NCBI RefSeq assembly: GCF_947623445.1
Contig: NC_135245.1
Coordinates: forward strand, 15,073,501 to 15,137,500
Direction: 5' to 3'
Length of the DNA: 64,000 bases
DNA from: Clavelina lepadiformis
Lineage: Eukaryota; Chordata; Ascidiacea; Aplousobranchia; Clavelinidae
Part shown: positions 35,266-64,000 of the stretch, piece by piece
Numbering within the stretch: the first letter of the stretch is position 1
Layout of the letters: every line of letters begins with the position of its first letter
The notes under the pieces: model-generated
Told to the model about the DNA's origin: nothing
Database searches by the model: none
What the model saw: only the letters and a program-made list of their open reading frames with translations
Position numbers and translations under genes: made by a program

Positions 35266-36270
35266 TAGTATAGTGGTGCCACCTCAGGACTCCTACCGCC
35301 ACCGCCACCGCCAACCCGCCAACCCGCCAACCGGCAATCTGTCAGATTAGGTCATTCAAGTAATTAGGTCATATGTAAAAAGAGAAAAGTGACGTCATAG
35401 TTTTCGTTAGCGCCACCACACGTAAAGAAAAAAGATGTTAGAAAAAGTACAAGTGTAAAAGTGACGTCATAGTTTTCGTTAGCGCCACCACACGTAAAGA
35501 AAAAAGATGTTAGAAAAAGTACAAGTGTAAAAGTGACGTCATAGTTTTCGTTAGCGCCAACGTGTGGTGTTCTAGATTTGTAGAGGAAAAAACATCTTGG
35601 GTTTGTGGATATTCGATATCAGTTACATCATAGTTTCAGTGTAAAGTATACAGAACGATGAACCGTATGCATTGCCACCTGGAATCATATGGAGAAAAGC
35701 CTAGAGTAAGAATGCGTTAATTGACACACTAACATGACCTGGTTATGAAATCCAGCTTGGGTTGAAATAAGCCAGACTTTAGAAACAAAGCATTGGAAGG
35801 TATTACAACCAATCCATTCGATTCCAGGTGTAAGAGAAGAATAAATAATAGCTGGTACCCAGATGTGATTTTTCTTGACCCGATTATAAAGGCAAGTCCA
35901 AACTTGTCTGATTGAAACAAGTGTGTTGGACAGGTCGAAAGGGTGGTATATTGCGCAATCTCACCAATCCACTCACAGCCAGTTGTGGGAAAGAATAACG
36001 GAAAGCTGGTATCCAGATGTGATTTTTCTTGACCCGGTTATAAAGGCAGTCCAAACCTGTCTGATTGAAACAAGTGTGTTGGACATTACTATTCAGCTAG
36101 AGCAGTCATCTTTGTTAAAAAACTGTACTTGCTAGCATTAGATATAATCGTTTAGAGGAGGTAAACTTGTTTCGCATTGATAATTAATGAATAATATTGG
36201 ATATTACTATTCAACAAAGCTTACGGTTTTAGTAATAAATTAGTATTTTTACAGTACCAAGAAGATTAAA
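35266..36270 (+). repeat. Left terminal repeat region of the element
   Basis: Three nested layers. First, a C-rich short tandem array of 'ccgcca'/'acccgcca' units at about 35,287-35,335. Second, 72-bp tandem units whose TGACGTCA cores begin at 35,390, 35,462 and 35,534. Third, 154-bp units beginning 'gctggta.ccagatgtg' at 35,851 and 36,005. The same layers, inverted and diverged, fill about 62,730-64,000. The region recurs in direct orientation from 45,346 with almost no change (for example one C/T difference at 35,286 versus 45,366). Confidence 0.85.
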
Positions 36271-36420
36271 CTTCAACAAAAAACACATCAGAAGGAATAG
36301 GAAACGCTGTAAATTTTGTGTGCGGACATTTACAAAGTGAGTACACAATAAACTTTATGGATGAAATATCATTTTCAATCTATACTGTATATTAGTTTAA
36401 GAGATTTGAAAAAACATATG

Positions 36421-37100
36421 AGACGCTCACACCAACCGCGTGTAGTACCAAGACCCCAGATTCCTCGCCCTAGAACGATTGTGGTGGATGGCGATACAAT
36501 CGCAGAGGATATTCCTGAAGATTACAGGTAAAAATAAAACATGATTGATATCAAATAACAATTCATGAAAGGAGTTTATTTTATTTTTGAAGGGGTATCT
36601 ATCAAAGCAATTGGCGAGCAATACGAACTCATTTTCATATCGGTAATACGGTTCAAGAGCGTTACACGTTTCGTATCCCTGACCAAAGCATGATCGATCA
36701 AGGTCTCGAATCATTATGGCCATACTTTCGTGAAAATATTTTCCAGAGACAACGACAACCGTTCAAAATCCGTGTCGCATTTGGATTTATTTTACGACAT
36801 GAAGGAAATGAAGAAGACTTACCAGTAGTATATCGTTACTTTCATCCGGACAATCACTCCGATTATTTGTATTTAGGCCCTGAAACCATCCGCGATCGAA
36901 CCGAATTCGATCAATTCCTTATCGATATTCAACGGAAGAATATCAGACAATGGTCGGATAGATTAAAATCCGAAAGCGCTTGGGTCGTGGAATCTATCTG
37001 TAATGTTGAATTTTACATCAATCCACTTCGGTATATACCGATTGGTATACCAGAAGCATTACCTGAATTTATTATTTCAAATAAAGGTCGATTTGTATGA
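36421..37100 (+). pseudogene. Polinton-type PolB N-terminal-domain fragment (unit 1)
   Basis: A short exon-like block (36,421-36,528, MRRSHQPRVVPRPQ) is followed by a longer block ending at 37,100. The longer block carries the pattern I recall from the N-terminal domain of large Maverick/Polinton DNA polymerase B proteins: 'W..IRTHF' and 'FKIRVAFGFILRH', then a DF-type stretch (EFDQFL), then SAWVVESI, PIGIPEALPEFI and a following Lys/Val segment. The exonuclease and polymerase domains are not found, so this is a fossil fragment. The outer end of palindrome 1 falls inside this block. Confidence 0.6.
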
Positions 37101-40100
37101 GGTGACAATAAAGAAAAAACGTGTGATTTGGAATCTCCCCATCCAGATACATATGATGAAATACAGCCTACAGTAACGCCTACACAAAACAATTTACAGT
37201 GTTCAACCACTTCATACAGGAAAAAAAAATTTTAAAACAACTTTAAGTTGTCAACGTTTTATTCCATTATCCAACTTTTAACCTAAGAATAGAGTTTGAG
37301 ATATAAATTTATACTAAACTATAGCTCGTGTAATTGGGTAATGCGAAGAAGTCTTAAGTATATAGCCCCGAAAAACATAGCTTTAGGCTATTCGCTTTTC
37401 AAAAAATACAAAATATTGGAATACATCGATCGACGGATGAAATAAAACTAAGACCGCGTTTCGTTAGGTATAGAAAAACTATAAAATTTTCTTGCTTTGG
37501 TTGAATTATTCAAACCATTTAAACTTATTCCGCTGATCATATTCATATATACTCAACTTTCTTTAGAAAAGAACGCGTTCAAACCGAAAGAAATGATTCC
37601 AACACCACAAAATTGGAAAATAAATATGCGGTTAAAAGCAAGTGTAAACTGTTTTTGATTGATTCTTCCTAAGCCAACTTAACTTATAAGTTATGATTTA
37701 ACAAAATGCATTAAAATAAGCATATTTTTTCCTAAACACTGTTTGGTTTGATACACTTTAGTTTGGTAAAAGCATGACGAAACAGTATGTAAACAATATA
37801 TGGTTTAATTAACCTGGTTATTTATTTTTTTTATTTTATTTTTTTATTTTTTCATATGCAAATACTTTTTGCACGTAAAACAGAAGTTCTTAAACTTTTT
37901 CATCTTACTTATTCCCACAAAATAAATGTAAATGTGAGAAGAATCAAGGAGCAACGAACTGCTTGTATACCATTGCGATTAAGTTTCATTGTTTATCGAG
38001 GTAGTAGTGATTTAAGTTATCTCTTTACAGAATGAAATGCAAACGGATCACCTTACCGCGGATTTCCCGGATCTAGAAAGTGACGGGAGGTTGTTGAGAC
38101 AAGTTACAGATCCACCAGGACAACAAAGTCGTTACATTCCACCCGGTAGGTTGGAAAATCATGTTTGAGAATCACGTTCCAGAGAAACGTAGGTTTTTAC
38201 GTCACGATCCTATTTCTGTTAGTACAGGTGATCCAACACGCGAGACCTATCGTCTTTCAACTTTCAAACTATTTCCCAGAGAAGTACAGGTCGATGTTCG
38301 TAAGTTGGCTGCTGCTGGTTTTTATTTCACTGGTTTTAAAGACAGGACCAAGTGCTTCAGGTAACGTCTTGTTCATTAAAATAGAGACTTGGATACATAA
38401 AATACGGGACTTAATTTCTAATCAAACAAATACGTTTAAACAAGTTGTGCGAATAGTTTTACGTTCAAAAACACTATCATAAAACAAATCTCAACTTCAT
38501 TCCAGTTGTGGTCAATCTGTCCAAGAATGGGAAGTCGAAGATGACCCGAAGCTACTCCGATGGCATAGATCCAATTGTGATATCATTAACGGAAAGGATA
38601 CAAGAAACATACCAATCGGTTAGTTAAGACAAAGATTTCAATTAATTTGTAAGAAAAAAAAAAAAGAGAAGCATCGAATCAATCTGATCTGTAATACCAA
38701 CAAAGTGTAAAGATGGATCGATGTTTAAAACGTCTCAAAAGCGTAAATGAACCGAACCAAATCTTGATTCTTTTTTGTAGTTTCATGAAACTACACCTGA
38801 AATTGCCTTATTATACTACCGTTTACGCTGTCATAATAGAACGAGTTACGTGAGTGAGTAGTGAATTCTCCGTTCATACGACGTTACTTCCACTACCTTG
38901 TAAATATTGATTAAATCTAGATTCCATTCTTCGTCAATTCGAACTTATTCCACCCCATGGCCATGGAAACGCTACAAGTTCAGCCACACGACCGCCAACA
39001 TCTGGGAATCCACAGGCTTCAGCAGATCAAAGAAAAGTCATTACAAATGGCATTGGTATCACATCAAATTCACCAATGTTTCAAACAGCTACATTTAGAA
39101 ATTCTTCGTGCTCCACCCCTCCACCTAGTGTGGTTGCGTCCACCATCGCGAATTCACATAGAAATCTTGCAATTAATTTGGAGAACATGAACTTGTTTCC
39201 ATGTTTGAATCCGGTAAATCCCCACATGAAGAGCAAGAAATCTCGTCTCCAAACTTTCCTTGATCACTCGTCATCGTGGCCTACTCATAGGATTCGCACA
39301 ACTCCCAGACAAATTGCAAACGCAGGAATGTATTACTTGGGTGAGGCTCATACTTTCAAGCTTAGGTCTCATACCATAAAAAAAATAAAAAAATAAAAAT
39401 AAAATTTGGTAAGTTGTAGAATTACAAAGTGAAATATTCTCCAGGTGTAAGAGATCGTGTAAAATGTTGGTATTGCAATGGAGGATTACAAAATTGGGAG
39501 AGAGATGACGATCCATGGCAAGAGCACACCAAGTGGTTTCCATTGTAAGTTGAATTTTCTGTCTCCATGAAAGAATTTACCAGATTTGGCTTTTTTATGA
39601 TTTCTATGTTTAACAAACTTGGATCTCCTGCCCAGGTGCGAGTTTGTTCTTCAACAAAAAGGTCCAGATTATGTTCATGGGATCGCCTTTCGATTCCCCA
39701 ATCTAAGAAGACCGACAATTCGGAATCCAGCAAATCCAAATCAACTCAGGAATATTCAATCAGGACAAATGTAAACCTCCTAAAGTCATGTTCTTGATCA
39801 TCATCTTGGTTTTGTTCTTTGTAGTTATCTATTTCTTTGTTTAGTTTACGAAACGGACATCGAAATGGTGGCCCTGAAATCATCGATCCCAGGGAAGAGA
39901 TAAGATCTCTAGAGCGGAAAGTTGACGGAGAGATGTCTTCGTCTGAACTGGTGGAGCAAGCAAAACTAATGGGATTCGACGAAAGAACGATAAAAACTGC
40001 TTTGAAAAGGTGAAATTTTGTCAAGAAAGCTATTTTTTAATTTTTATTGCATTACAATTATCAATAGCATTGAAAACCGATCTTTCTACAGGAAATATGA

Positions 40101-40735
40101 AACCACTGGTTATGGATTTTCTAGGCTTGAAAATCTCGTTGAGTCTATTCTTGCGATGGAGGAAGAATCTGCTTCCAATAGATCTGAAGAAGAAGGATTG
40201 GCAACAAAGAAAGCAACTCCTTCAATAGCATCTGGACTTCAAGAGATTCGTCGTTTACAGGAGGAAAGAACGTGTAAAGTTTGTGGCAACGAACAAGCGA
40301 GTGTTGTTCTTATTCCATGCGGACATATTGCTTGTTGTATTGGTTGCGCTGAAAACGCATCGACTTGTCCCCTTTGTCGTTTGCGAGTTCGAGAAAAAGT
40401 CCGATCTTTTATTGTTTAAAGCAAAAGTTTGGATTCTTTTGAAATGTAAGTCAACGCCGCGCTATGGTGATTTGATATGAAGTGTGAACCGTATTTAGAG
40501 CGCTACCTTGCGTTATCCTCACAATCGATTCAGTTACAAACATCATCGCTGGCTGGCAGTACGATAACATCCAAAACTTTTCAATTTAAATTGTTATTCA
40601 AAAAACTTGCCTTGTATAGTATTTTCTGGAATTTCCCAAAGGTTCTTTTCAAGTTTTGAACATGTATTCACGTTGCTATCATATTATAATTCGTTACATA
40701 GCCATTTATTTCATCACCGTTGCGCAATATGCGTT
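36799..40735 (+). repeat. Palindrome 1, left arm (3,937 bp)
   Basis: Paired with 41,409-45,345 as an inverted repeat: paired positions sum to 82,144 throughout, as many open frames on the two arms show, so there is no net indel between arms. The inner boundary is at gcgcaatatgcgtt and the outer boundary lies within the PolB-like block. Confidence 0.95.
38161..40419 (+). CDS. Inhibitor of apoptosis protein, BIR-BIR-UBA-RING (copy A1)
   Basis: Seven GT-AG exons (38,161-38,360; 38,506-38,618; 38,921-39,340; 39,445-39,544; 39,636-39,770; 39,845-40,009; 40,092-40,419) give 486 residues, close to XIAP length. BIR1 (about 28-100, [10 protein letters not shown] ... CFRCGQ) has an unusual ligand spacing, C-x2-C-x18-H-x3-C. 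BIR2 (about 208-278) is canonical: CWYC, x16, H, x6, C. A UBA-like helix set with the core [12 protein letters not shown] lies at about 350-395. The C-terminal C3HC4 RING starts at CKVC and has CGHIACC and CPLC. IAPs of this plan are E3 ubiquitin ligases that restrain caspases and tune NF-kB signalling. This copy reads CPLC where the other copies read CPIC. A conserved segment at 38,031-38,150 precedes the ATG and may be untranslated or a separate exon. The gene looks whole; expression is unknown. Confidence 0.85.
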
Positions 40736-41408
40736 ATGTGTTTGAAACTCCAAATAGAATGTTTGGCGCCGGACGTTTCACGATTGCCCTGATGAAAAAT
40801 ATGCAATATGCGTTTGAAACTCCAAATAGAATGTTTGGCGCCGGACGTTTCACGATTGCCCTGATGAAAAATACCTTTTGTAACATTTCAGCGATTCGAT
40901 TCCTCCAATCGTGTGTTGATTTTAACAATGTTTCTTGCGCCGAAACCAGGAAAGTGATCCTGTGACAGACAATGATCAGTCAAGTGAGCCGAAAACTAAG
41001 TCGTTGTCTTGCGAAACTTCTGCACACTGTTACAGCGTGATTTTACGAAATTCCTTCAAGAAGCTGTATTTTAAAGCATGTCGTTTAAGCGTTGGAATTT
41101 TTGTTTTGCTGATCGAAGAATCTTGTAACCCGCTTTCAGGAATTACTGCTTTATTTTAATCCTTGAGTGTGTTGTATTATCACTGAACCTATTAAAAAAG
41201 CACAAGCATACTGGATGTGTGTGTTTACAGACCTCTTAAACGTTTCAATTTGATATATTTGTGAGTATGATTCCAATAGAAACGAATATCTATTTTAAGA
41301 CTATCATCATGCTGATCGATCGTGAATATAAGTTTGCTTTTTCATACTTTTCCTTGAAAGCTTGGAGAGTAGCCAGAGGCAAATGATTTCAAGGTATGAC
41401 GATCGCGA
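40736..41408 (+). other. Palindrome 1 spacer, 673 bp (orientation 1)
   Basis: Unique sequence between the arms, not self-complementary as a whole. It opens with a 72-bp direct duplication (tttgaaactcc at 40,741 and 40,813; each unit carries gtttggcgccggacgtttc and ctgatgaaaaat). No convincing gene. The same 673 bp occurs reverse-complemented at 50,815-51,487. Confidence 0.9.
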
Positions 41409-41724: not shown

Positions 41725-43983
41725 TTAAACAATAAAAGATCGGACTTTTTCTCGAACTCGCAAACGACAAATGGGACAAGTCGATGCGTTTTCAGCGCAA
41801 CCAATACAACAAGCAATATGTCCGCATGGAATAAGAACAACACTCGCTTGTTCGTTGCCACAAACTTTACACGTTCTTTCCTCCTGTAAACGACGAATCT
41901 CTTGAAGTCCAGATGCTATTGAAGGAGTTGCTTTCTTTGTTGCCAATCCTTCTTCTTCAGATCTATTGGAAGCAGATTCTTCCTCCATCGCAAGAATAGA
42001 CTCAACGAGATTTTCAAGCCTAGAAAATCCATAACCAGTGGTTTCATATTTCCTGTAGAAAGATCGGTTTTCAATGCTATTGATAATTGTAATGCAATAA
42101 AAATTAAAAAATAGCTTTCTTGACAAAATTTCACCTTTTCAAAGCAGTTTTTATCGTTCTTTCGTCGAATCCCATTAGTTTTGCTTGCTCCACCAGTTCA
42201 GACGAAGACATCTCTCCGTCAACTTTCCGCTCTAGAGATCTTATCTCTTCCCTGGGATCGATGATTTCAGGGCCACCATTTCGATGTCCGTTTCGTAAAC
42301 TAAACAAAGAAATAGATAACTACAAAGAACAAAACCAAGATGATGATCAAGAACATGACTTTAGGAGGTTTACATTTGTCCTGATTGAATATTCCTGAGT
42401 TGATTTGGATTTGCTGGATTCCGAATTGTCGGTCTTCTTAGATTGGGGAATCGAAAGGCGATCCCATGAACATAATCTGGACCTTTTTGTTGAAGAACAA
42501 ACTCGCACCTGGGCAGGAGATCCAAGTTTGTTAAACATAGAAATCATAAAAAAGCCAAATCTGGTAAATTCTTTCATGGAGACAGAAAATTCAACTTACA
42601 ATGGAAACCACTTGGTGTGCTCTTGCCATGGATCGTCATCTCTCTCCCAATTTTGTAATCCTCCATTGCAATACCAACATTTTACACGATCTCTTACACC
42701 TGGAGAATATTTCACTTTGTAATTCTACAACTTACCAAATTTTATTTTTATTTTTTTATTTTTTTTATGGTATGAGACCTAAGCTTGAAAGTATGAGCCT
42801 CACCCAAGTAATACATTCCTGCGTTTGCAATTTGTCTGGGAGTTGTGCGAATCCTATGAGTAGGCCACGATGACGAGTGATCAAGGAAAGTTTGGAGACG
42901 AGATTTCTTGCTCTTCATGTGGGGATTTACCGGATTCAAACATGGAAACAAGTTCATGTTCTCCAAATTAATTGCAAGATTTCTATGTGAATTCGCGATG
43001 GTGGACGCAACCACACTAGGTGGAGGGGTGGAGCACGAAGAATTTCTAAATGTAGCTGTTTGAAACATTGGTGAATTTGATGTGATACCAATGCCATTTG
43101 TAATGACTTTTCTTTGATCTGCTGAAGCCTGTGGATTCCCAGATGTTGGCGGTCGTGTGGCTGAACTTGTAGCGTTTCCATGGCCATGGGGTGGAATAAG
43201 TTCGAATTGACGAAGAATGGAATCTAGATTTAATCAATATTTACAAGGTAGTGGAAGTAACGTCGTATGAACGGAGAATTCACTACTCACTCACGTAACT
43301 CGTTCTATTATGACAGCGTAAACGGTAGTATAATAAGGCAATTTCAGGTGTAGTTTCATGAAACTACAAAAAAGAATCAAGATTTGGTTCGGTTCATTTA
43401 CGCTTTTGAGACGTTTTAAACATCGATCCATCTTTACACTTTGTTGGTATTACAGATCAGATTGATTCGATGCTTCTCTTTTTTTTTTTTCTTACAAATT
43501 AATTGAAATCTTTGTCTTAACTAACCGATTGGTATGTTTCTTGTATCCTTTCCGTTAATGATATCACAATTGGATCTATGCCATCGGAGTAGCTTCGGGT
43601 CATCTTCGACTTCCCATTCTTGGACAGATTGACCACAACTGGAATGAAGTTGAGATTTGTTTTATGATAGTGTTTTTGAACGTAAAACTATTCGCACAAC
43701 TTGTTTAAACGTATTTGTTTGATTAGAAATTAAGTCCCGTATTTTATGTATCCAAGTCTCTATTTTAATGAACAAGACGTTACCTGAAGCACTTGGTCCT
43801 GTCTTTAAAACCAGTGAAATAAAAACCAGCAGCAGCCAACTTACGAACATCGACCTGTACTTCTCTGGGAAATAGTTTGAAAGTTGAAAGACGATAGGTC
43901 TCGCGTGTTGGATCACCTGTACTAACAGAAATAGGATCGTGACGTAAAAACCTACGTTTCTCTGGAACGTGATTCTCAAACAT
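41725..43983 (-). CDS. Inhibitor of apoptosis protein, BIR-BIR-UBA-RING (copy A2)
   Basis: Mirror copy of A1 in the right arm, the same seven-exon structure read on the minus strand, tail to tail with A1 across the 673-bp spacer. The RING ends CPIC instead of CPLC, the one coding difference I noticed, so A1 is the odd copy. It looks whole. BIR2 and RING zinc ligands are all present, and BIR1 has the same unusual spacing. Confidence 0.85.
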
Positions 43984-45345: not shown

Positions 45346-46350
45346 TAGTATAGTGGTGCCACCTCAGGACTCTTACCGCCACCGCCACCGCCAACCCGCC
45401 AACCCGCCAACCGGCAATCTGTCAGATTAGGTCATTCAAGTAATTAGGTCATATGTAAAAAGAGAAAAGTGACGTCATAGTTTTCGTTAGCGCCACCACA
45501 CGTAAAGAAAAAAGATGTTAGAAAAAGTACAAGTGTAAAAGTGACGTCATAGTTTTCGTTAGCGCCACCACACGTAAAGAAAAAAGATGTTAGAAAAAGT
45601 ACAAGTGTAAAAGTGACGTCATAGTTTTCGTTAGCGCCAACGTGTGGTGTTCTAGATTTGTAGAGGAAAAAACATCTTGGGTTTGTGGATATTCGATATC
45701 AGTTACATCATAGTTTCAGTGTAAAGTATACAGAACGATGAACCGTATGCATTGCCACCTGGAATCATATGGAGAAAAGCCTAGAGTAAGAATGCGTTAA
45801 TTGACACACTAACATGACCTGGTTATGAAATCCAGCTTGGGTTGAAATAAGCCAGACTTTAGAAACAAAGCATTGGAAGGTATTACAACCAATCCATTCG
45901 ATTCCAGGTGTAAGAGAAGAATAAATAATAGCTGGTACCCAGATGTGATTTTTCTTGACCCGATTATAAAGGCAAGTCCAAACTTGTCTGATTGAAACAA
46001 GTGTGTTGGACAGGTCGAAAGGGTGGTATATTGCGCAATCTCACCAATCCACTCACAGCCAGTTGTGGGAAAGAATAACGGAAAGCTGGTATCCAGATGT
46101 GATTTTTCTTGACCCGGTTATAAAGGCAGTCCAAACCTGTCTGATTGAAACAAGTGTGTTGGACATTACTATTCAGCTAGAGCAGTCATCTTTGTTAAAA
46201 AACTGTACTTGCTAGCATTAGATATAATCGTTTAGAGGAGGTAAACTTGTTTCGCATTGATAATTAATGAATAATATTGGATATTACTATTCAACAAAGC
46301 TTACGGTTTTAGTAATAAATTAGTATTTTTACAGTACCAAGAAGATTAAA
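45346..46350 (+). repeat. Second copy of the left terminal repeat region, in direct orientation
   Basis: Starts with the identical (t)AGTATAGTGGTGCC terminus and repeats the C-rich, 72-bp and 154-bp arrays at an offset of exactly 10,080 bp from 35,266. It marks the start of a second element unit (45,346-50,814 matches 35,266-40,735; the offset drops to 10,079 after a poly-A run near 48,731). Confidence 0.9.
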
Positions 46351-46500
46351 CTTCAACAAAAAACACATCAGAAGGAATAGGAAACGCTGTAAATTTTGTG
46401 TGCGGACATTTACAAAGTGAGTACACAATAAACTTTATGGATGAAATATCATTTTCAATCTATACTGTATATTAGTTTAAGAGATTTGAAAAAACATATG

Positions 46501-47180
46501 AGACGCTCACACCAACCGCGTGTAGTACCAAGACCCCAGATTCCTCGCCCTAGAACGATTGTGGTGGATGGCGATACAATCGCAGAGGATATTCCTGAAG
46601 ATTACAGGTAAAAATAAAACATGATTGATATCAAATAACAATTCATGAAAGGAGTTTATTTTATTTTTGAAGGGGTATCTATCAAAGCAATTGGCGAGCA
46701 ATACGAACTCATTTTCATATCGGTAATACGGTTCAAGAGCGTTACACGTTTCGTATCCCTGACCAAAGCATGATCGATCAAGGTCTCGAATCATTATGGC
46801 CATACTTTCGTGAAAATATTTTCCAGAGACAACGACAACCGTTCAAAATCCGTGTCGCATTTGGATTTATTTTACGACATGAAGGAAATGAAGAAGACTT
46901 ACCAGTAGTATATCGTTACTTTCATCCGGACAATCACTCCGATTATTTGTATTTAGGCCCTGAAACCATCCGCGATCGAACCGAATTCGATCAATTCCTT
47001 ATCGATATTCAACGGAAGAATATCAGACAATGGTCGGATAGATTAAAATCCGAAAGCGCTTGGGTCGTGGAATCTATCTGTAATGTTGAATTTTACATCA
47101 ATCCACTTCGGTATATACCGATTGGTATACCAGAAGCATTACCTGAATTTATTATTTCAAATAAAGGTCGATTTGTATGA
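46501..47180 (+). pseudogene. Polinton-type PolB N-terminal-domain fragment (unit 2)
   Basis: Copy of 36,421-37,100 at +10,080; the translated long block appears identical. Same interpretation and same fossil status. Confidence 0.6.
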
Positions 47181-48240: not shown

Positions 48241-50498
48241 ATGTTTGAGAATCACGTTCCAGAGAAACGTAGGTTTTTACGTCACGATCCTATTTCTGTT
48301 AGTACAGGTGATCCAACACGCGAGACCTATCGTCTTTCAACTTTCAAACTATTTCCCAGAGAAGTACAGGTCGATGTTCGTAAGTTGGCTGCTGCTGGTT
48401 TTTATTTCACTGGTTTTAAAGACAGGACCAAGTGCTTCAGGTAACGTCTTGTTCATTAAAATAGAGACTTGGATACATAAAATACGGGACTTAATTTCTA
48501 ATCAAACAAATACGTTTAAACAAGTTGTGCGAATAGTTTTACGTTCAAAAACACTATCATAAAACAAATCTCAACTTCATTCCAGTTGTGGTCAATCTGT
48601 CCAAGAATGGGAAGTCGAAGATGACCCGAAGCTACTCCGATGGCATAGATCCAATTGTGATATCATTAACGGAAAGGATACAAGAAACATACCAATCGGT
48701 TAGTTAAGACAAAGATTTCAATTAATTTGTAAGAAAAAAAAAAAGAGAAGCATCGAATCAATCTGATCTGTAATACCAACAAAGTGTAAAGATGGATCGA
48801 TGTTTAAAACGTCTCAAAAGCGTAAATGAACCGAACCAAATCTTGATTCTTTTTTGTAGTTTCATGAAACTACACCTGAAATTGCCTTATTATACTACCG
48901 TTTACGCTGTCATAATAGAACGAGTTACGTGAGTGAGTAGTGAATTCTCCGTTCATACGACGTTACTTCCACTACCTTGTAAATATTGATTAAATCTAGA
49001 TTCCATTCTTCGTCAATTCGAACTTATTCCACCCCATGGCCATGGAAACGCTACAAGTTCAGCCACACGACCGCCAACATCTGGGAATCCACAGGCTTCA
49101 GCAGATCAAAGAAAAGTCATTACAAATGGCATTGGTATCACATCAAATTCACCAATGTTTCAAACAGCTACATTTAGAAATTCTTCGTGCTCCACCCCTC
49201 CACCTAGTGTGGTTGCGTCCACCATCGCGAATTCACATAGAAATCTTGCAATTAATTTGGAGAACATGAACTTGTTTCCATGTTTGAATCCGGTAAATCC
49301 CCACATGAAGAGCAAGAAATCTCGTCTCCAAACTTTCCTTGATCACTCGTCATCGTGGCCTACTCATAGGATTCGCACAACTCCCAGACAAATTGCAAAC
49401 GCAGGAATGTATTACTTGGGTGAGGCTCATACTTTCAAGCTTAGGTCTCATACCATAAAAAAAATAAAAAAATAAAAATAAAATTTGGTAAGTTGTAGAA
49501 TTACAAAGTGAAATATTCTCCAGGTGTAAGAGATCGTGTAAAATGTTGGTATTGCAATGGAGGATTACAAAATTGGGAGAGAGATGACGATCCATGGCAA
49601 GAGCACACCAAGTGGTTTCCATTGTAAGTTGAATTTTCTGTCTCCATGAAAGAATTTACCAGATTTGGCTTTTTTATGATTTCTATGTTTAACAAACTTG
49701 GATCTCCTGCCCAGGTGCGAGTTTGTTCTTCAACAAAAAGGTCCAGATTATGTTCATGGGATCGCCTTTCGATTCCCCAATCTAAGAAGACCGACAATTC
49801 GGAATCCAGCAAATCCAAATCAACTCAGGAATATTCAATCAGGACAAATGTAAACCTCCTAAAGTCATGTTCTTGATCATCATCTTGGTTTTGTTCTTTG
49901 TAGTTATCTATTTCTTTGTTTAGTTTACGAAACGGACATCGAAATGGTGGCCCTGAAATCATCGATCCCAGGGAAGAGATAAGATCTCTAGAGCGGAAAG
50001 TTGACGGAGAGATGTCTTCGTCTGAACTGGTGGAGCAAGCAAAACTAATGGGATTCGACGAAAGAACGATAAAAACTGCTTTGAAAAGGTGAAATTTTGT
50101 CAAGAAAGCTATTTTTTAATTTTTATTGCATTACAATTATCAATAGCATTGAAAACCGATCTTTCTACAGGAAATATGAAACCACTGGTTATGGATTTTC
50201 TAGGCTTGAAAATCTCGTTGAGTCTATTCTTGCGATGGAGGAAGAATCTGCTTCCAATAGATCTGAAGAAGAAGGATTGGCAACAAAGAAAGCAACTCCT
50301 TCAATAGCATCTGGACTTCAAGAGATTCGTCGTTTACAGGAGGAAAGAACGTGTAAAGTTTGTGGCAACGAACAAGCGAGTGTTGTTCTTATTCCATGCG
50401 GACATATTGCTTGTTGTATTGGTTGCGCTGAAAACGCATCGACTTGTCCCATTTGTCGTTTGCGAGTTCGAGAAAAAGTCCGATCTTTTATTGTTTAA
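48241..50498 (+). CDS. Inhibitor of apoptosis protein, BIR-BIR-UBA-RING (copy B1)
   Basis: Unit-2 counterpart of A1, with the same seven exons and domains, and a RING reading CPIC as in A2. The third intron has one A fewer in a poly-A run. It looks whole. The sequence downstream enters the spacer at 50,815 in the opposite orientation to unit 1. Confidence 0.85.
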
Positions 50499-51487: not shown

Positions 51488-52607
51488 AACGCATATTGCG
51501 CAACGGTGATGAAATAAATGGCTATGTAACGAATTATAATATGATAGCAACGTGAATACATGTTCAAAACTTGAAAAGAACCTTTGGGAAATTCCAGAAA
51601 ATACTATACAAGGCAAGTTTTTTGAATAACAATTTAAATTGAAAAGTTTTGGATGTTATCGTACTGCCAGCCAGCGATGATGTTTGTAACTGAATCGATT
51701 GTGAGGATAACGCAAGGTAGCGCTCTAAATACGGTTCACACTTCATATCAAATCACCATAGCGCGGCGTTGACTTACATTTCAAAAGAATCCAAACTTTT
51801 GCTTTAAACAATAAAAGATCGGACTTTTTCTCGAACTCGCAAACGACAAATGGGACAAGTCGATGCGTTTTCAGCGCAACCAATACAACAAGCAATATGT
51901 CCGCATGGAATAAGAACAACACTCGCTTGTTCGTTGCCACAAACTTTACACGTTCTTTCCTCCTGTAAACGACGAATCTCTTGAAGTCCAGATGCTATTG
52001 AAGGAGTTGCTTTCTTTGTTGCCAATCCTTCTTCTTCAGATCTATTGGAAGCAGATTCTTCCTCCATCGCAAGAATAGACTCAACGAGATTTTCAAGCCT
52101 AGAAAATCCATAACCAGTGGTTTCATATTTCCTGTAGAAAGATCGGTTTTCAATGCTATTGATAATTGTAATGCAATAAAAATTAAAAAATAGCTTTCTT
52201 GACAAAATTTCACCTTTTCAAAGCAGTTTTTATCGTTCTTTCGTCGAATCCCATTAGTTTTGCTTGCTCCACCAGTTCAGACGAAGACATCTCTCCGTCA
52301 ACTTTCCGCTCTAGAGATCTTATCTCTTCCCTGGGATCGATGATTTCAGGGCCACCATTTCGATGTCCGTTTCGTAAACTAAACAAAGAAATAGATAACT
52401 ACAAAGAACAAAACCAAGATGATGATCAAGAACATGACTTTAGGAGGTTTACATTTGTCCTGATTGAATATTCCTGAGTTGATTTGGATTTGCTGGATTC
52501 CGAATTGTCGGTCTTCTTAGATTGGGGAATCGAAAGGCGATCCCATGAACATAATCTGGACCTTTTTGTTGAAGAACAAACTCGCACCTGGGCAGGAGAT
52601 CCAAGTT
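51488..52607 (-). repeat. Palindrome 2, right arm (truncated)
   Basis: Reverse complement of 49,695-50,814. It breaks at 'gatccaagt' inside the intron before the BIR2 C-terminal exon and is replaced by palindrome 3. Confidence 0.92.
51804..52607 (-). pseudogene. Inhibitor of apoptosis gene, cut copy B2 (3' half)
   Basis: Carries the RING, the UBA-like exons and the end of BIR2 on the minus strand, identical in sense to A2. The 5' half with BIR1 and most of BIR2 is absent because the arm ends at 52,607. A fossil copy. Confidence 0.8.
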
Positions 52608-53864: not shown

Positions 53865-56082
53865 ATGTTTGAGAATCACATTCCAGAAAAACGTAGGTTT
53901 TTACATCACCTTCCTATTTCGATAAGTACAGGTGATCCAACAACTGAAACCTATCGTCTTTCAACTTTCAAACTATTTCCCAGAGAAGTACAAATCGATG
54001 TTCGTAAGTTAGCTTCTGCTGGTTTTTATTTCACTGGTTTTAAAGACAGAACCAAGTGCTTCAGGTAACTAGAGAGTTTGATATAGGGTTTGATTCTAAT
54101 CGAAGCAATATGTTTAAATAAGTTAGGTGATTATAGTTTTACATGTAAAAAACACTATCCTCAACTTCTTTTCAGTTGTGGTCAATCTGTCCAAGAATGG
54201 GAATTCAAGGATGATCCAAAACTACTCCGATGGCACAGATCTGATTGTGATATCATTCACGGAACGGAAACAAGAAATATACCAATCAGTTAGTTACGAT
54301 AAAGTTTTAAATTTATAAGAAAAAAGATACAGATCGAATCAATCCGAAATATATTCATGATCTGTAATACCTACAAAACATAAAGATGGAATGATATTGA
54401 ATACGTCTCAAAAAGTGTGAATGAACCGAACCAAATCTTAATTCATTTCACAGTTTCACGAAACACCATATGAAATTACCTTACTATGCTACCGTTTATG
54501 CTGTGATAGTAGAATATGTTACGTAAGTAGTGTATACCCTGTTCATATGACGTTACATCCACTAGATTGTAAATATTGGTAACTATTTCTAGATTCCATT
54601 CTTCATCAATTCGAACTCACGCCAACCCATGACAATGAAAACGCTACAAGATCAGTAACACGACCTCTAACATCTGGGTATCCACAGGCTTCAGAAGATC
54701 AAAGAAGACAAATTACAACAGGAAAAATCATTACAAATGGCATTGACATCAGAACAAATTCACCAAACGCCACGATGGCAACATTATTTCAAACTGCTAC
54801 ATTTAGGAATAGTTTATGCACCACACCTCCACCTAATGTAGTTGCATCGACCATAGCAAACTCACATAGAAATCTTACTATGAATTTGAGTAACTTGTTT
54901 CCATGCTCAAATCCTGTGAATCCTCACATGAGGAGTGAAGAATCTCGTCTTCAAACTTTCCTGGATCACTCCTCATCATGGCCTTCTCATAGGATTCATG
55001 CCACTCCCAGACAAATTTCAAAAGCAGGAATGTATTACTTGGGTGAGTGGATCAGATAAAGTACTGGTTGATTTGTTTCAAACTTAAGATTCAGGATCAA
55101 AAGTAGAAATTTATGATTTTCTAACGTTTTTTCCTTTATTACCCAGGTGTAAGAGATCGAGTAAAATGTTGGTATTGTAATGGAGGGTTACAAAATTGGG
55201 AGAGAAATGACGATCCGTGGGAAGAGCACACCAAGTGGTTTCCAATGTAAGTTGAATTTTCCATCTCAATGAAGGGATTTCTCAGATTTTACTTTTTATG
55301 ATTTCTATGTTTAACAAACTTCTATACTTTATCCGCAGGTGTGAGTTCGTTCTTCAGCAAAAAGACCTAGATTATGTTCATCGGATCGTTTCTCGATTCC
55401 CTAACCTAAGAAGACCGCTAATTCAGAATCCAGCAAATCCAAACCAACTCGGGAATATTCAATCGGGATTAATGTAAATCTCCTTAAGTCATCTTGGTTT
55501 GTTTGTTATATGTTATCATCTATTTCTTAGTTTAGTTTAGGAAACGGACATCGAAATGATGGCCTCGAAATCATCGATCCGAGGGAAGAGGTAAGATCTA
55601 TAGAGACGAAAGTGGACGGAGAAATGTCTTCGTCTGAGCTGATACAACAAGCAAAACGGATGGGATTCGATGAAAGAATCATAAAAAATGCTTTGAAAAG
55701 GTGAAAAATTTGTTACTGGTTTTATTACATTAAACTTACGAATCACATTGAAAACCAATCTTTCTACAGGAAATATGAGGTCACTGGTAATGGATTTTCT
55801 AGGCTTGAAATTCTTGTTGAGTCTATTCTCGCAATGGAGGAAGAATCTGCTTCCAATAGATCTGAAGAAACCTCAACAACTCCTTCTACAGAATCCGGAT
55901 CTGAAGAGATTCGTCGTTTACAAGAAGAAAGAACGTGTAAAGTTTGTCGAAACGAGGGAGCGAGTGTTGTGCTTATTCCTTGTGGACATATTGCTTGTTG
56001 TATTGGTTGCGCTGAAGACGCATCGATCTGCCCCATTTGTCGTTTGCGAATTCGAGAAAAAGTCAGATCTTTTATTGTTTAA
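53865..56082 (+). CDS. Inhibitor of apoptosis protein, BIR-BIR-UBA-RING (diverged copy C1)
   Basis: Same gene plan as A1 with diverged sequence. BIR1 block (53,865-54,063; CFRCGQ, x18-H-x3-C spacing retained). BIR2 from [13 protein letters not shown] through CWYC and the H-x6-C end. UBA-like [26 protein letters not shown] ... CGHIACC ... CPIC, ending KVRSFIV at 56,082. The linker after the UBA is shorter than in A1. Retention of all domain-defining residues and splice sites despite divergence suggests the gene was under constraint for some time. It looks whole. Confidence 0.8.
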
Positions 56083-56972: not shown

Positions 56973-58013
56973 ACATGGGAAACAATCTGTTTGAGAAAAA
57001 GTTATGTTGTACACCATCAGGTTTTGAGAAAGCAAAAGGATGTGTTTGATTTCAAGTGTTTCCGTAGAGAAGGGTATATATCTCCCTCTTGTTTGAGAAT
57101 TGAAAATTATGATGTTATCATGTAAGCAGTTGTAATCAGGTTGAGTAAACTTGTTTCACATCGATAATGAGTGATATTGAATATTACTTTATTTATATAT
57201 GATAGGTTACTTAGGGAGATGCCTTCTGTTATGTATCAATGTAATGTTTGTGATAAGCAATTTAGTACAATCTATAGTTTAAAAAGACATAGAAAAACGC
57301 ATGATGACCAGCGATTTCTCTGTAAGCTGTGTGATAAAATCTATAAACGAAAAGATATTTATCAAAAACATTATCGCAATAAACATGCTGGGAATCAGTT
57401 GGGGGTAGAAAAAAAAAAAAAAAAAAAACCTTTGTTATAACGTAAGTACAATACGAAGTAATCCTATTCCGTACAATATCAATATATTCAATAATTTTCT
57501 TCTTTTTGTGATAGTACCGCATCCCTTGAACAAATGAAGAGAAGAAGTAATGCTATGAGTCGTGAAAGTATTGATAAAAGGTATGAATTGTATTCATATA
57601 CTCTACGTAGTTTTATTCTAATGAATACTGTTAATGATTATTCTGGTCATACACGTCTGGATAGTGATAAAAAATAAGTTTTAAAGTATTTACAATAGCA
57701 TAAACGCCACATAATTTATAGGAATGAAAGATATGAAGAAACGTTTTCTATGGGAACCTATTTAGATTTTCGTATGAAATCATACATCAGTGAGAATTCG
57801 ATTTTAAATGGTCAAGTATCTTTTATGCTTCCACCAACACAGCAAGAGTTAACAAGCATTGGAAAAGAAAATAGTTATGTACAAGTTTCATTGTTTGGGA
57901 AAAACTATATTTTAAATGTTCTTCAATATAGCTGTGCTCTATGTGAAAGAAAGTTCTTCGAAAACGATCAATTAAAAGTGCATATGTTGAGACATGAAGA
58001 AAACATAGTATTT
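56973..58013 (+). other. Palindrome 3 spacer (1,041 bp)
   Basis: Unique sequence between the arms. Its left part (about 57,140-57,190, 'gtaaacttgtttcacatcgataatgag') is related to the inner edge of the terminal repeat (36,160-36,190), and the rest holds C2H2 finger segments. It is unrelated to the 673-bp spacers of palindromes 1 and 2. Confidence 0.8.
57171..57440 (+). pseudogene. C2H2 zinc-finger segment of the element (two fingers)
   Basis: Two adjacent fingers, CNVCDKQFSTIYSLKRHRKTH and CKLCDKIYKRKDIYQKHYRNKH, with a following Lys run from a poly-A tract. Fingers of this kind precede the N-terminal domain in Maverick-type PolB proteins as I remember them, so this may be the front part of the same ancient protein as 36,421-37,100. 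Treated as a fossil piece. Confidence 0.55.
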
Positions 58014-58058
58014 TCCATATGTAACATGTCGAATATTTTGCCTGTGGTGCTAGTGTAA
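57750..58058 (+). pseudogene. Element-derived segment with one C2H2 finger
   Basis: An open block whose C-terminal part has CALCERKFFENDQLKVHMLRH, a single C2H2 finger. The N-terminal part (YLDFRMKSYI ... LTSIGKENSYVQV) is not recognised. It crosses into the right arm of palindrome 3 at 58,014. Fossil. Confidence 0.45.
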
Positions 58059-58903
58059 CAATATTTGACTGGTTGAAAGTGTTTGAGTAAATAGTCAATA
58101 CAATTATTACAAAGGTGTGTATTACTTACTGTCAAAAATTATTCCTAATAGCCATTGTATTCCATAGTATTTTATGTTAGTGCTTTTTTACAAGAAAAAA
58201 CGATTGAGTCACCGCCTAATCATCACCTAATTTATTCCATTTCATTATGTGAATAGTTCTTCATGAAACTCAGATACATTATGATTTCCCCCCGTAAAAA
58301 ATGAAGCAATATAATTGAAATATCATTCATACTTTTACAATTTGATATCTTCGGAAGGTATCTGATAAAGTTTCAGTACATGTGTAAGAAAAAAGTTCTT
58401 AGAAAACAGTACACAAACTCCTTTGTAGTTAGTGCGCCAGAAAATTTTCACCGTTCCATTCCACGGTTTAAACGATATGTTTCAAAATATAGTTTTTAGA
58501 AGGATTTGTTTGAAATCACACTATAAAAGTATGCAGAAGTTTGACGTTATCACACTGCCAGCCAGCGATGATTTTTTGTAACTGAATTGATTGTGAAGGT
58601 AACGCAAGGTGGTGCTCTAAATACAATTTACATCGATTCACCATAGAACAGTGTTGACTTTTATTTGAAAAGAACCCGATTGATTCATCCATAGATTCAT
58701 GATACGGTAAACTAGAACCCAGAAAACAGAAAATCGAAGCACATTTTGAAACTGGTACAGAAAATATATTGGAAAACGTATATCTGAATAAATTTATCAT
58801 CCAGTTTTATAGAATTATTAAAAAATTAAGCGAAGATCTTCTAAAATCATTTATATTGAAAATAATTTACGAAAGTGCTACTTAAATTCCACAAACTTTT
58901 GCT

Positions 58904-61121
58904 TTAAACAATAAAAGATCTGACTTTTTCTCGAATTCGCAAACGACAAATGGGGCAGATCGATGCGTCTTCAGCGCAACCAATACAACAAGCAATATGT
59001 CCACAAGGAATAAGCACAACACTCGCTCCCTCGTTTCGACAAACTTTACACGTTCTTTCTTCTTGTAAACGACGAATCTCTTCAGATCCGGATTCTGTAG
59101 AAGGAGTTGTTGAGGTTTCTTCAGATCTATTGGAAGCAGATTCTTCCTCCATTGCGAGAATAGACTCAACAAGAATTTCAAGCCTAGAAAATCCATTACC
59201 AGTGACCTCATATTTCCTGTAGAAAGATTGGTTTTCAATGTGATTCGTAAGTTTAATGTAATAAAACCAGTAACAAATTTTTCACCTTTTCAAAGCATTT
59301 TTTATGATTCTTTCATCGAATCCCATCCGTTTTGCTTGTTGTATCAGCTCAGACGAAGACATTTCTCCGTCCACTTTCGTCTCTATAGATCTTACCTCTT
59401 CCCTCGGATCGATGATTTCGGGGCCATCATTTCGATGTCCGTTTCCTAAACTAAACTAAGAAATAGATGATAACATATAACAAACAAACCAAGATGACTT
59501 AAGGAGATTTACATTAATCCCGATTGAATATTCCCGAGTTGGTTTGGATTTGCTGGATTCTGAATTAGCGGTCTTCTTAGGTTAGGGAATCGAGAAACGA
59601 TCCGATGAACATAATCTAGGTCTTTTTGCTGAAGAACGAACTCACACCTGCGGATAAAGTATAGAAGTTTGTTAAACATAGAAATCATAAAAAGTAAAAT
59701 CTGAGAAATCCCTTCATTGAGATGGAAAATTCAACTTACATTGGAAACCACTTGGTGTGCTCTTCCCACGGATCGTCATTTCTCTCCCAATTTTGTAATC
59801 CTCCATTACAATACCAACATTTTACTCGATCTCTTACACCTGGGTAATAAAGGAAAAAACGTTAGAAAATCATAAATTTCTACTTTTGATCCTGAATCTT
59901 AAGTTTGAAACAAATCAACCAGTACTTTATCTGATCCACTCACCCAAGTAATACATTCCTGCTTTTGAAATTTGTCTGGGAGTGGCATGAATCCTATGAG
60001 AAGGCCATGATGAGGAGTGATCCAGGAAAGTTTGAAGACGAGATTCTTCACTCCTCATGTGAGGATTCACAGGATTTGAGCATGGAAACAAGTTACTCAA
60101 ATTCATAGTAAGATTTCTATGTGAGTTTGCTATGGTCGATGCAACTACATTAGGTGGAGGTGTGGTGCATAAACTATTCCTAAATGTAGCAGTTTGAAAT
60201 AATGTTGCCATCGTGGCGTTTGGTGAATTTGTTCTGATGTCAATGCCATTTGTAATGATTTTTCCTGTTGTAATTTGTCTTCTTTGATCTTCTGAAGCCT
60301 GTGGATACCCAGATGTTAGAGGTCGTGTTACTGATCTTGTAGCGTTTTCATTGTCATGGGTTGGCGTGAGTTCGAATTGATGAAGAATGGAATCTAGAAA
60401 TAGTTACCAATATTTACAATCTAGTGGATGTAACGTCATATGAACAGGGTATACACTACTTACGTAACATATTCTACTATCACAGCATAAACGGTAGCAT
60501 AGTAAGGTAATTTCATATGGTGTTTCGTGAAACTGTGAAATGAATTAAGATTTGGTTCGGTTCATTCACACTTTTTGAGACGTATTCAATATCATTCCAT
60601 CTTTATGTTTTGTAGGTATTACAGATCATGAATATATTTCGGATTGATTCGATCTGTATCTTTTTTCTTATAAATTTAAAACTTTATCGTAACTAACTGA
60701 TTGGTATATTTCTTGTTTCCGTTCCGTGAATGATATCACAATCAGATCTGTGCCATCGGAGTAGTTTTGGATCATCCTTGAATTCCCATTCTTGGACAGA
60801 TTGACCACAACTGAAAAGAAGTTGAGGATAGTGTTTTTTACATGTAAAACTATAATCACCTAACTTATTTAAACATATTGCTTCGATTAGAATCAAACCC
60901 TATATCAAACTCTCTAGTTACCTGAAGCACTTGGTTCTGTCTTTAAAACCAGTGAAATAAAAACCAGCAGAAGCTAACTTACGAACATCGATTTGTACTT
61001 CTCTGGGAAATAGTTTGAAAGTTGAAAGACGATAGGTTTCAGTTGTTGGATCACCTGTACTTATCGAAATAGGAAGGTGATGTAAAAACCTACGTTTTTC
61101 TGGAATGTGATTCTCAAACAT
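58904..61121 (-). CDS. Inhibitor of apoptosis protein, BIR-BIR-UBA-RING (diverged copy C2)
   Basis: Mirror of C1 on the minus strand, with the same domains and residues in BIR1, BIR2, UBA-like region and RING. C1 and C2 face tail to tail across the C2H2-bearing spacer. It looks whole. Confidence 0.8.
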
Positions 61122-62175
61122 GATTTTCCAACCTACCAGGAGGAATGTAGCGACTTTTTTGTCCTGGTGGGTCTCTAATTTGTCTCAATAACCTCCCGTC
61201 ACTTTCTAGATCTGGAAAATCCGTGATAAGGTAATCCCTTTGTATTTCATTCTGTAAAGAGATAATTTAAATGATAACTATCTCGATAAATAAGGAAACT
61301 GAATCGCAATGATATACAAAACAGTTCATTGCTTTTCTTCTCACTACCCTATCTCCACAAATACTATACAACGAATCAATGTATAAAATTGAAGACAAGT
61401 TCTTTTGGAATGTCAAACATGAGAAAGCTTGAGAAACCCTGTTTTATGTGTAAGAAATGACTAGCTTCATTAAACCGTATCTTGTTTACATACTATTTCC
61501 TCATACTTTTATCAAACTAAAGTATATCTAAGACAACAAGATTTTGGTTATTCATCTACAATTCACATCCGGAATCACTATCTCATATTCAATTCTTAAT
61601 TATATTTATTCCAACTGAAATGAGACGAATACATTAGATGCTATTCGCTTATGCTTTTATTCTATTTCTATAAGTTTACTGACTCGATAGTTTCTTGATG
61701 ATAGACATTCAGTGTTTCTGTTATCATGATTGTGTTCATCGGTTCGCATTTGGTTTTCATTCTTTTCTGTTTTTTCAGTAGTAGACATATTCACGCTTAT
61801 TCAATAATTCTTAAGAAAAAGACCTTTTCATGTTTAAAACAAAATTCGTTAATGTATTCATCTTATCACGATTCTTAGTAAAATAAAGTACCACGAGAAC
61901 TTCACTATAACTAATTGATTGATAGAATTTGTTAATTTTGACAAAAAATTTAACGCTTTATGGTTATAATACGACAAACCGTGATACATTTCATATTCAT
62001 TTATGTCGATTCTACACTTTTTCCTTATGGTTTTAATGTTTAAAATGTTAAATATATAACATAAAGATTATAAACTGTATCAAACCAAACAGTATTTAGG
62101 AAAAATATCTTTATTGTAAATGAGTTTTAACATATTAAAGTATTTCATTTTTTGTATTTTGGTGATAGAATTTGT

Positions 62176-62378
62176 TAATTTTGAAAAAATTTAAACATTT
62201 TACGGTGTAAATATGACAAACCGTGATACATTTCATATTCATTTAGGTTAATAAATTGTTTATCATAAACATTATATTGATACGTAACACAAGTTATTTC
62301 CCTAAGCAACTTATCATGTATAAATATTGACTTTTCTACCATAGTAATATAAAATACATGTAATAGTAATATAGTATA
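62176..62378 (-). pseudogene. Degraded C2H2 fragment, mirror copy
   Basis: Inverted copy of 52,607-52,810 at the outer end of palindrome 3. Fossil. Confidence 0.5.
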
Positions 62379-62602
62379 ATAATATTATCCATTATTGTTG
62401 TGAAATAAGCTTACTCACCCTGATTATAACTGATTACTCCATAAGATTATAACAGCTTTTTCTCGAAACATCACAGTACTCGTGACAGTATTATATCCGG
62501 TTTATTTCGCTTTTGTAGCGCACTCGAATCACCTCATTCCACACTCGTATGACCCATTGTATTATATTTCACACCATAAGATTATAACATCATAATGTAC
62601 AA

Positions 62603-62645
<43 letters not shown>

Positions 62646-62729
62646 CCTCTCTTTTGTTTTATTTAGGTTAGCATTTCGTTTATGATGTAACAATAGATAT
62701 AGAACCCGAAGAGTTTGTAAACAACAAAT
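62379..62729. repeat. Unpaired flank with a CT microsatellite
   Basis: AT-rich sequence containing 'ataagattataaca' words at about 62,442 and 62,576, followed by an uninterrupted (CT)n run at about 62,605-62,642 and a C-rich tail. No gene is visible. Confidence 0.8.
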
Positions 62730-64000
62730 TAACACAATTTATTACTAAAACAATAAGTTTTATATTATTAGTAAGTCCAATATTATTCATTAATTATTAT
62801 CGATGTAAAACAAGTTTACCACTACCCCCCACTCTAAACATTCACGAGTCAACTGAATACACCATAAGATTAGAACATTATAATGTACAAGTCAACGCCA
62901 TTTATTGCTAAAACACTAAGCTTAGCTCAGTTTAATCTACTTAAATACACTACAAAACCAAAACGATTATATCTAACGCTAACAAGTACAGTTTTTAACA
63001 AAGATGACTACGACATATCGCTTCGTTTTGTATTCGTTGATGTAATGATTTCAATTCTCAAACACCAAGTATTATATGCCACATCACGAAAACAAAACAA
63101 ACAAATCACATCTGGATGCAAGCTTTCCAAGACAAATCACATCTGGATGCCAGCTTTCCGTTATTCTTTCCCACAACTGGCTGTGAGTGGATTGGTGGGA
63201 TTGCGCAATATACCACCCTTTCGACCTGTCCAACACACTTGTTTCAATCAGACAGGTTTGGATTTACCTTTATAATCGGGTCAAGACAAATCACATCTGG
63301 ATGCCAGCTATTATTTATTCTTTCCCACAACTGGTTGTGAGTGGATTGGTGGGATTGCGCAATATACCACCCTTTCGACCTGTCCAACACACTTGTTTCA
63401 ATCAGACAGGTTTGGATTTGCCTTTATAATCGGGTCAAGACAAATCACATCTGGATGCCAGCTATTATTTATTCTTCTCTTACACCTGGAATCGAATGGA
63501 TTGGTTGTAATACCTTCCAATGCTTTGTTTCTAAAGTCTGGCTTATTTCAACCCAAGCTGGATTTCATAACCAGGTCATGTTAGTGTGTCAATTAACGCA
63601 TTCTTACTCTAGGCTTTTCTCCATATGATTCCAGGTGGAAATGCATACGGTTCATCGTTCTGTATACTTTACACTGAAACTATGATGTAACTGATATCGA
63701 ATATCCACAAACCCAAGATGTTTTTTCCTCTAGAAATCTAGAACACCGCACGTTGGCGCTAACGAAAACTATGACGTCACTTTTACACTTGTACTTTTTC
63801 TAACATTTTCTTTACGTGTGGTGGCGCTAACGAAAACTATGACATCACTTTTACACTTGTACTTTTTCTAACATTTTCTTTACGTGTGGTGGCGCTAACG
63901 AAAACTATGACGTCACTTTTACACTTGTACTTTTTCTAACATCTTTTTTCTTTACGTGTGGTGGCGCTAACGAAAACTATGACGTCACTTTTACACTTGT
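62730..64000 (-). repeat. Right terminal repeat region of the element (inverted, incomplete)
   Basis: Read on the minus strand it matches about 35,380-36,240 with divergence and an insertion. It has 154-bp units starting gacaaatcac at 63,131, 63,285 and 63,439. It then has the TGACGTCA-bearing units at 63,772, 63,840, 63,908 and 63,980 (spacings 68, 68 and 72). The extreme terminus (C-rich array and ...CACTATACT end) should lie just beyond base 64,000. Confidence 0.85.

Follow-up and report, generated by a model that had tools for sequence, protein, structure and literature searches.

Here we report that IAP genes, members of an anti-apoptotic family, travel on the ends of Polintons (Mavericks) in the genome of the ascidian Clavelina lepadiformis. 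The stretch analysed, called the window, comprises 64,000 nt of contig NC_135245.1 (C6:15073501-15137500) and contains a composite of giant palindromes with IAP genes. The genome searched was the 209-Mb assembly of 95 contigs, in which 11 elements were read outside the window composite. That IAP genes travel in this way follows from the element termini, the target-site duplications at their ends, and an IAP-bearing Polinton with integrase and packaging ATPase. The window locus itself is very probably a rearranged cluster of non-autonomous palindromic Polinton derivatives with a host-derived, intron-bearing IAP cargo, formed by fold-back replication.

The composite spans window positions 35264-64213, ending 213 bases beyond the window, and is built of three near-perfect palindromes, the likeness of whose arms is in each case far above chance. 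A seven-exon IAP gene with two BIR domains and a RING domain is present in it five times whole and once cut; a first-pass annotation, made from the sequence alone, had described three giant palindromes with six IAP copies, and the arm and gene coordinates (Table 1) confirm that description. The arms of palindrome 1 (35264-45345) lie at 36799-40735 and 41409-45345 (3937 nt, 99.98% identity). Palindrome 2, a direct copy of palindrome 1 at 99.9%, begins at 45346, and its right arm ends at 52607; its arms (49695-50814 and 51488-52607) are 1120 nt long and 100% identical. Palindrome 3 (52606-62379; arms 52606-56976 and 58010-62379, 99.9% identity) has about 79% identity to the other two in the IAP segment. 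The genes of palindromes 1 and 2 are referred to as type I and those of palindrome 3 as type II. After palindrome 3, an inverted terminal repeat leaves the window and ends at C6:15137713 (window 64213), and tandem repeats are present near the ends of the very long inverted repeats. C2H2 fossils had also been proposed; the motifs in the centre of palindrome 3 stand, and two more hits to the pattern, at 54502 and 60484, probably arose by chance.

The termini of the composite are of the Polinton style that had been claimed for them, with (AGT)2 ends. The terminus reads AGTAGTATAGTG(G/T)TGCCACC, in which AGT precedes the 14-mer that the first-pass annotation had taken as its start; the left end therefore lies at 35264, two bases earlier than had been given, and the right end, at 64213, lies outside the window. 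Palindrome 2 has ATT for AGT. With up to two mismatches the 14-mer occurs at 2 places in the window (0.22 expected; equalled in 4 of 100 shuffles), and it occurs exactly at 11 places in the genome (reversed-pattern control, 2). The 20-mer with at most one mismatch occurs at 43 places in the genome, 22 on the plus and 21 on the minus strand, and the reversed-pattern control gave 0. By position, 32 of the 43 ends can be assigned in pairs to 16 elements, one of them the window composite; of the rest, 2 are internal and 9 unpaired. The proposed search for other termini with IAP and Polinton core genes between them was thus positive, and such termini, whose confinement to this one locus had been named as a refutation, occur well beyond it.

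The copies in the window are lettered C, D and E and the elements elsewhere A, B, F to M, and P, among them A (C9:4.98M), B (C6:15333291), F (C3:5.40M), G (C7:16.68M), H (C6:17.63M), I (C2:3.89M) and P (C5:10297750-10311707). Target-site duplications of 6 bp flank 10 of the 11 further elements, nine perfect and one with one mismatch: TGCCTC (P), GCTGTG (A), CACTAT (F), AGTATT (G), TACGAA (H), CAAGTC (I), GACTAT (J), CCGACG (K), AGCCTA (L) and CCCCGG/CCCTGG (M). In B, the remaining element, the right end is damaged. Among cross-pairs of the hexamers, 0 of 90 matched perfectly and 2 of 90 with at most one mismatch. Palindromes make up eight of the 11 (A, B, F, G, H, I, J and K); the others are the full-length Polinton P and the short derivatives L and M. 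IAP genes were found in nine (A, B, F, G, H, I, J, L and P), one of them the Polinton with integrase and packaging ATPase, which bears out the suggestion that IAP cargo resides on a virus-like element. Maverick ends, as given in an excerpt of a published account (PMC8097293), are (AGT)2//(ACT)2 or (AG)3//(CT)3, with 6-bp duplications. Two unpaired ends, C1:2397691 (-) and C1:4042607 (+), face outward 1.6 Mb apart with equal terminal-repeat scores and are possibly a second element split by rearrangement. A short element at C3:21.62M contains a 408-aa open reading frame (ORF; L019:4150-5373) with weak zinc-finger-type matches, perhaps a nested retroelement.

The full-length Polinton P is 13,958 bp long, and its terminal repeats measure about 0.8 kb and share 99.8% identity over 659 bp. 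Its Pfam matches above the cut-off were rve integrase (1.6e-13), Chromo (1.6e-10), Pox_A32 (1.6e-8), Adeno_IVa2 (2.4e-5) and BIR (7.4e-20); the integrase carries the chromodomain. P also contains polymerase-like ORFs of 804 and at least 358 aa, with DTDS and NCSYG motifs that we take to be those of a polymerase, a 185-aa protease-like ORF (Peptidase_C5, E 0.068; Peptidase_C48, E 0.058; both below the cut-off), further ORFs of 275, 137 and 435 aa, and a right-end ORF of 205 aa (o205). By place and size only, the 275-, 137- and 435-aa ORFs are taken as candidate penton, minor and major capsid proteins. The BIR match belongs to IAP229, a one-exon, intronless BIR-RING gene of 229 aa. All four near-full copies of IAP229 lie between paired termini, namely in P, in C6:608524-620413 (not among the elements read) and in both arms of C4:22273248-22285359; partial matches occur elsewhere. 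Near-full copies of the capsid-like ORF number five genome-wide, at the four IAP229 sites and at C1:7.095M, all between paired termini. Neither this ORF nor IAP229 had a relative in the viral contig collection. P sits within an ORF (L044:724-2751 and L043:8596-9000) that is presumably a retrotransposon-like gag-pol.

The window holds no match to the integrase, capsid-like ORF or packaging ATPase of P; its elements are filed as non-autonomous derivatives, not complete Polintons, because the integrase is absent. Integrase is present in P and in the palindrome at C4:22.27M. The PolB-like traces in the window consist only of fragments homologous to the 804- and 358-aa ORFs of P, and a fossil of this type, noticed in the first-pass annotation, is upheld by its likeness to a polymerase-like ORF that a Polinton elsewhere in this genome carries (Table 1). 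Type I arms carry a Polinton left end, made up of the terminal repeat and polymerase residues 1-166, which in the window copies is followed by 60 bp from 2.7 kb further on. Among type II palindromes, those in the window and at C7:16.68M carry the start of o205 from the Polinton right end; no o205 match was found in the third, at C3:5.40M. The C4:22.27M palindrome consists of the right 7.5 kb of a Polinton and a mirror of its last 4.6 kb, and keeps capsid-like ORFs, integrase and the intronless IAP gene; no clear microhomology was seen at its fold-back junction. From these left- and right-end gene fragments, each palindrome is one Polinton end in duplicate wherever Polinton genes remain, the outcome that fold-back and copying of a displaced strand would give. 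At C9:4.98M, C6:17.63M and C2:3.89M, both sides of the centre hold the segment that lies downstream of the IAP gene; the window and C6:15333291 have it on one side only, and a central deletion is suggested for these two. In I, the polymerase-like frame passes directly into the first BIR half-exon, giving one 475-aa frame (L037:4437-5861).

Over the 2.1-7.1 kb compared, 1-17 mismatches separate sister arms. In the IAP segment (about 2470-2810 nt) the sister arms of A, E, F, G and I show 0-2 differences, and the nearest other element is 11, 6, 6, 35 and 6 differences away, respectively. Across the eight host-type IAP palindromes, the arms were mutually nearest in five, tied in two and contradicted in one; the rule that sister arms are always nearest was dropped, as H contradicts it. 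Given H and the ties, arms appear to be mostly, not always, made or kept alike within an element. Indels between sister arms were found in H (47 gap positions, besides an exon 3 lost in one arm) and in I (96 gap positions).

With seven exons and GT-AG junctions, the modelled IAP gene has an uninterrupted frame of about 465 codons; where exon 3 begins is uncertain, several acceptors keeping the frame open so that 42 models fit. ATG and TAA were checked for the five whole genes. Of the domains originally named, two BIR stretches (7.8e-33) and RING (1.8e-11) exceed the Pfam cut-off, and UBA_BIRC2-3 (E 0.0076) falls below it. The best PDB match is BIRC2 (2e-41). In an alignment of 18 arm copies from the window and seven other loci, with the cut sixth window copy left out, 15 are open with all splice sites; one arm of H has lost exon 3, and in I the first half of exon 1 is missing from both arms, which are out of frame. 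Between types I and II (13 of the 18 copies) synonymous divergence (dS) is 0.32-0.35 and replacement divergence (dN) 0.086-0.097, a ratio of 0.26-0.28, and exon length differences are multiples of three. Differences within types (15 copies) comprise 15 synonymous and 20 replacement changes (omega 0.38, one-sided p 0.005). Purifying selection on the IAP gene is supported, and the constraint may partly predate the capture.

A host IAP clade is the likely source of the seven-exon cargo, judging from sequence comparison. The genome contains at least 149 BIR matches (183 candidates, of which 150 were scored), some of them in tandem clusters near 27.5 and 28.2 Mb on C1, and the three C1 genes read have the same exon layout as the element IAPs. 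In the nearest, at C1:27.530M, exon 3 is about 90% identical to that of both types, and the BIR1 and RING exons are 62-73% identical to those of type I; IAP229 has 47-49% identity to types I and II over BIR2 and linker. In a tree of the kind suggested at the outset, of element against host IAPs, types I and II group with the C1:27.530M gene at weak support (68, then 52 after masking of exon edges that held intron residues). The trees had about 103-123 columns and 17 rows (one of 18 dropped for gaps) and 16 rows, a small part of the 149 BIR matches. One capture or two would both be compatible with these data. Single IAP copies without a terminal-repeat match (C4:9.02M, C4:7.50M, C4:19.11M and others) were considered as host donor and dropped; some are decayed elements, as termini lie 3 kb from C4:7.507M and 5 kb from the centre match at C7:10.82M. 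At C1:28.21-28.29M, BIR matches recur every 18,507 bp (C1:28227244, 28245751 and 28264258); host IAP genes have probably been duplicated in tandem there recently.

Polintons encode a protein-primed PolB, according to a passage in PMC11071308. In the fold-back reading, a Polinton end would have become joined to host DNA holding an IAP gene during protein-primed, strand-displacing replication; the displaced strand would fold back and be copied, which would yield a linear, symmetric molecule ending on either side in a Polinton terminus. Molecules of this kind might be replicated and integrated in trans by the enzymes of full-length Polintons, and recombination between palindromes could then have produced the window composite. 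Judging from its gene family, the IAP product may keep the cell alive while the element replicates, with the palindrome doubling the IAP dose. Going further, one may tentatively suppose that the palindromes are a self-renewing mobile form, in which every cycle of protein-primed replication passes through a hairpin, with a single arm serving as template for both, so that a captured host gene is doubled, kept identical and spread in trans; we hold this doubtful, and it is weakened by H, whose arms are not nearest neighbours.

Several observations weigh against these interpretations. The hexamers flanking the window composite (AGCTCT/CATCTG) differ at all six bases, a mismatch that forms no duplication, and the flanks of B differ at four of six, its right end being damaged. 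The locus is thus within termini, as first described, and is a rearranged composite broken by recombination, not a single element framed by paired ends. Read on the opposite strand, AGCTCT gives AGAGCT, which is the left flank of B at C6:15333291, and an inversion of about 196 kb between the two loci through recombining palindromes is probable, as a lead; this clue was spotted post hoc (chance 1 in 4096 for one comparison), and the fourth flank expected from it is missing because the right end of B is damaged. No IAP gene was found in K and M, so that IAP is not required for palindrome formation or spread. The polymerase-like ORFs of P had no PolB family match in Pfam, the later of them nothing significant against PDB by sequence (best E 0.89), and the 435-aa capsid-like ORF no Pfam match and no significant PDB match (best E 1.1). 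The window copies C and D and the element B tie at 0-1 differences, and over 1394 positions the right arm of H shows 4 differences from its own left arm and 2 from a window copy. Arm identity could also arise by gene conversion between arms. The replacement rate within types was not significantly lower than the intron rate (p 0.097), and selection after capture is accordingly modest.

Gene conversion after insertion, as on sex-chromosome palindromes, has an appreciable chance, short of even, of being what keeps the arms identical in elements otherwise as described. Arm conversion is well known for large palindromes, and the low mismatch counts between sister arms agree with it. Against it stand the indels that persist between sister arms in H and I and the arms of H, which are not nearest neighbours, and the one-end make-up of the palindromes together with the C4 element, a right half and its own mirror, points to fold-back copying at the origin. 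For later upkeep, neither the persisting indels nor the one-end make-up separates conversion from hairpin renewal.

Local events account less well for the data. The first-pass annotation had itself offered the alternative that the host IAP locus was invaded and duplicated, that is, that Polinton ends entered it and ordinary segmental duplication followed, with nothing moving as a unit. The resemblance of the cargo to the host IAP clade on C1 fits part of this, as do the tandem arrangement of host IAP clusters there, the composite's want of a target-site duplication, and the copies C, D and C6:15333291, which are 0-1 site apart in the IAP segment and lie within about 240 kb on one chromosome. 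Type I and II palindromes, however, occur on C9, C3, C7, C6 and C2 (A, F, G, H and I) with unrelated hexamers exactly duplicated at their ends; the unit moved with Polinton ends, and invasion in place, improbable for the window, is already contradicted for the family. Fold-back DNA transposons merely resembling Polintons are a still less probable source. Galileo makes a duplication of about 7 bp and has a P-type transposase. Galileo, FB and TU share with the window family giant inverted repeats, subterminal tandem repeats, ectopic recombination and inversions, whereas the family has other ends, a 6-bp duplication and another enzyme: the (AGT)2 ends recur on an element with rve integrase and an A32/IVa2-type ATPase, and the arms hold fragments of the full-length Polinton's genes. 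It is scarcely credible, finally, that the palindromes are false and stem from inverted chimeric reads. Palindromes of near-perfect likeness are a classic assembly artefact and the structures here are known from the assembly, but seven of the eight palindromes read have distinct flanks with matching 6-bp duplications, their centres vary in length, and their arms differ slightly.

The family has several known systems as its closest parallels. With Polintons, Mavericks and adintoviruses it shares (AGT)2 ends, 6-bp duplications and terminal inverted repeats, as well as integrase and packaging ATPase in the relative on C5; the window elements differ in being palindromic, in keeping core genes only as fragments and in carrying an intron-bearing host-type IAP gene. 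Symmetric adenovirus recombinants, or symmetric defective adenovirus genomes (SYREC), are palindromes of a protein-primed linear genome in which two viral termini enclose cellular DNA. A, F, G, H and I likewise have a viral terminus at both ends and host-type DNA mirrored between, and differ from SYREC in being integrated with 6-bp duplications at many sites and in containing a whole host-type gene. Baculoviruses and other insect DNA viruses carry viral IAP genes, which IAP229 resembles in having BIR and RING in one exon; the palindrome copies, in contrast, keep seven exons, two BIRs and a UBA-like region. A passage of PMC11071296 states that anti-apoptotic homologues are encoded in most mammal-associated adintovirus species. 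In the part of the open PMC literature covered, no palindromic Polinton and no Polinton-borne IAP gene was found, which is not proof of their absence in print.

Anti-apoptotic-family genes thus move on Polinton ends in an animal genome in two forms, an intronless BIR-RING gene and a seven-exon host-type gene. The natural series of left-end, right-end and apparently centre-deleted palindromes offers a route to how protein-primed elements take up host genes, and a possible mechanism for palindrome-caused inversions and for IAP expansions, one of which is reported for a clam in a passage of PMC8905726. If the self-renewing form were real, it would provide a route for the capture, amplification and possible passing-on of intron-bearing host genes by virus-like elements, and IAP genes would be favoured as they keep the replicating cell alive.

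Table 1. Features of the palindromic composite, in window positions.
Feature	Position	Strand	Remarks
Polinton terminal repeat, palindrome 1	35264..36085	+	starts AGTAGTATAGTGGTGCC; flanking hexamer AGCTCT
PolB-like ORF, 5' fragment	36591..37088	+	92% aa identity to residues 1-166 of L044:4487-6898
Match to later part of polymerase-like gene	37090-37149		after PolB-like 5' fragment; intervening 2.7 kb absent
IAP gene 1	38161..40419	+	seven exons, two BIR, UBA-like, RING, open frame
IAP gene 1, exons 1-4	38161-38360, 38506-38618, 38984-39340, 39445-39544	+	start of 38984-39340 uncertain
IAP gene 1, exons 5-7	39636-39770, 39845-40009, 40092-40419	+	
Palindrome 1 centre	40736..41408	.	673 nt; one copy of the segment that flanks the centre on both sides in A, H and I
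IAP gene 2	41725..43983	-	mirror of gene 1; 1 difference in 2473 nt of arm
Second terminal repeat	45346..46165	+	first bases ATT, not AGT; joined to truncated arm of palindrome 1
PolB-like fragment, second copy	46671..47168	+	
IAP gene 3	48241..50498	+	whole
IAP gene 4	51804..52607	-	cut, last three exons
IAP gene 5	53865..56082	+	type II (dS ~0.33 from type I), seven exons, open
Palindrome 3 centre	56977..58009	.	1033 nt; C2H2 finger motifs at 57240, 57321 and 57933
IAP gene 6	58904..61121	-	type II, mirror of gene 5; 2 differences in 2808 nt
Fragment of o205 (right-end ORF of full-length Polinton)	63011..63118	-	residues 1-36, 92% identity
Right terminal repeat of composite	63128..64000	-	runs on to C6:15137713 (window 64213)

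Two paired elements of 9.08 kb on C1 (C1:1794445-1803523 and C1:2055900-2064978), 0.26 Mb apart, have equal match scores and mirror orientation and probably represent a duplicated segment. A search of the window against Rfam gave 0 matches at gathering score. Outside the composite, at 21686-25584, the window contains two long open stretches of 474 and 624 aa that have no Pfam match and a higher GC content.

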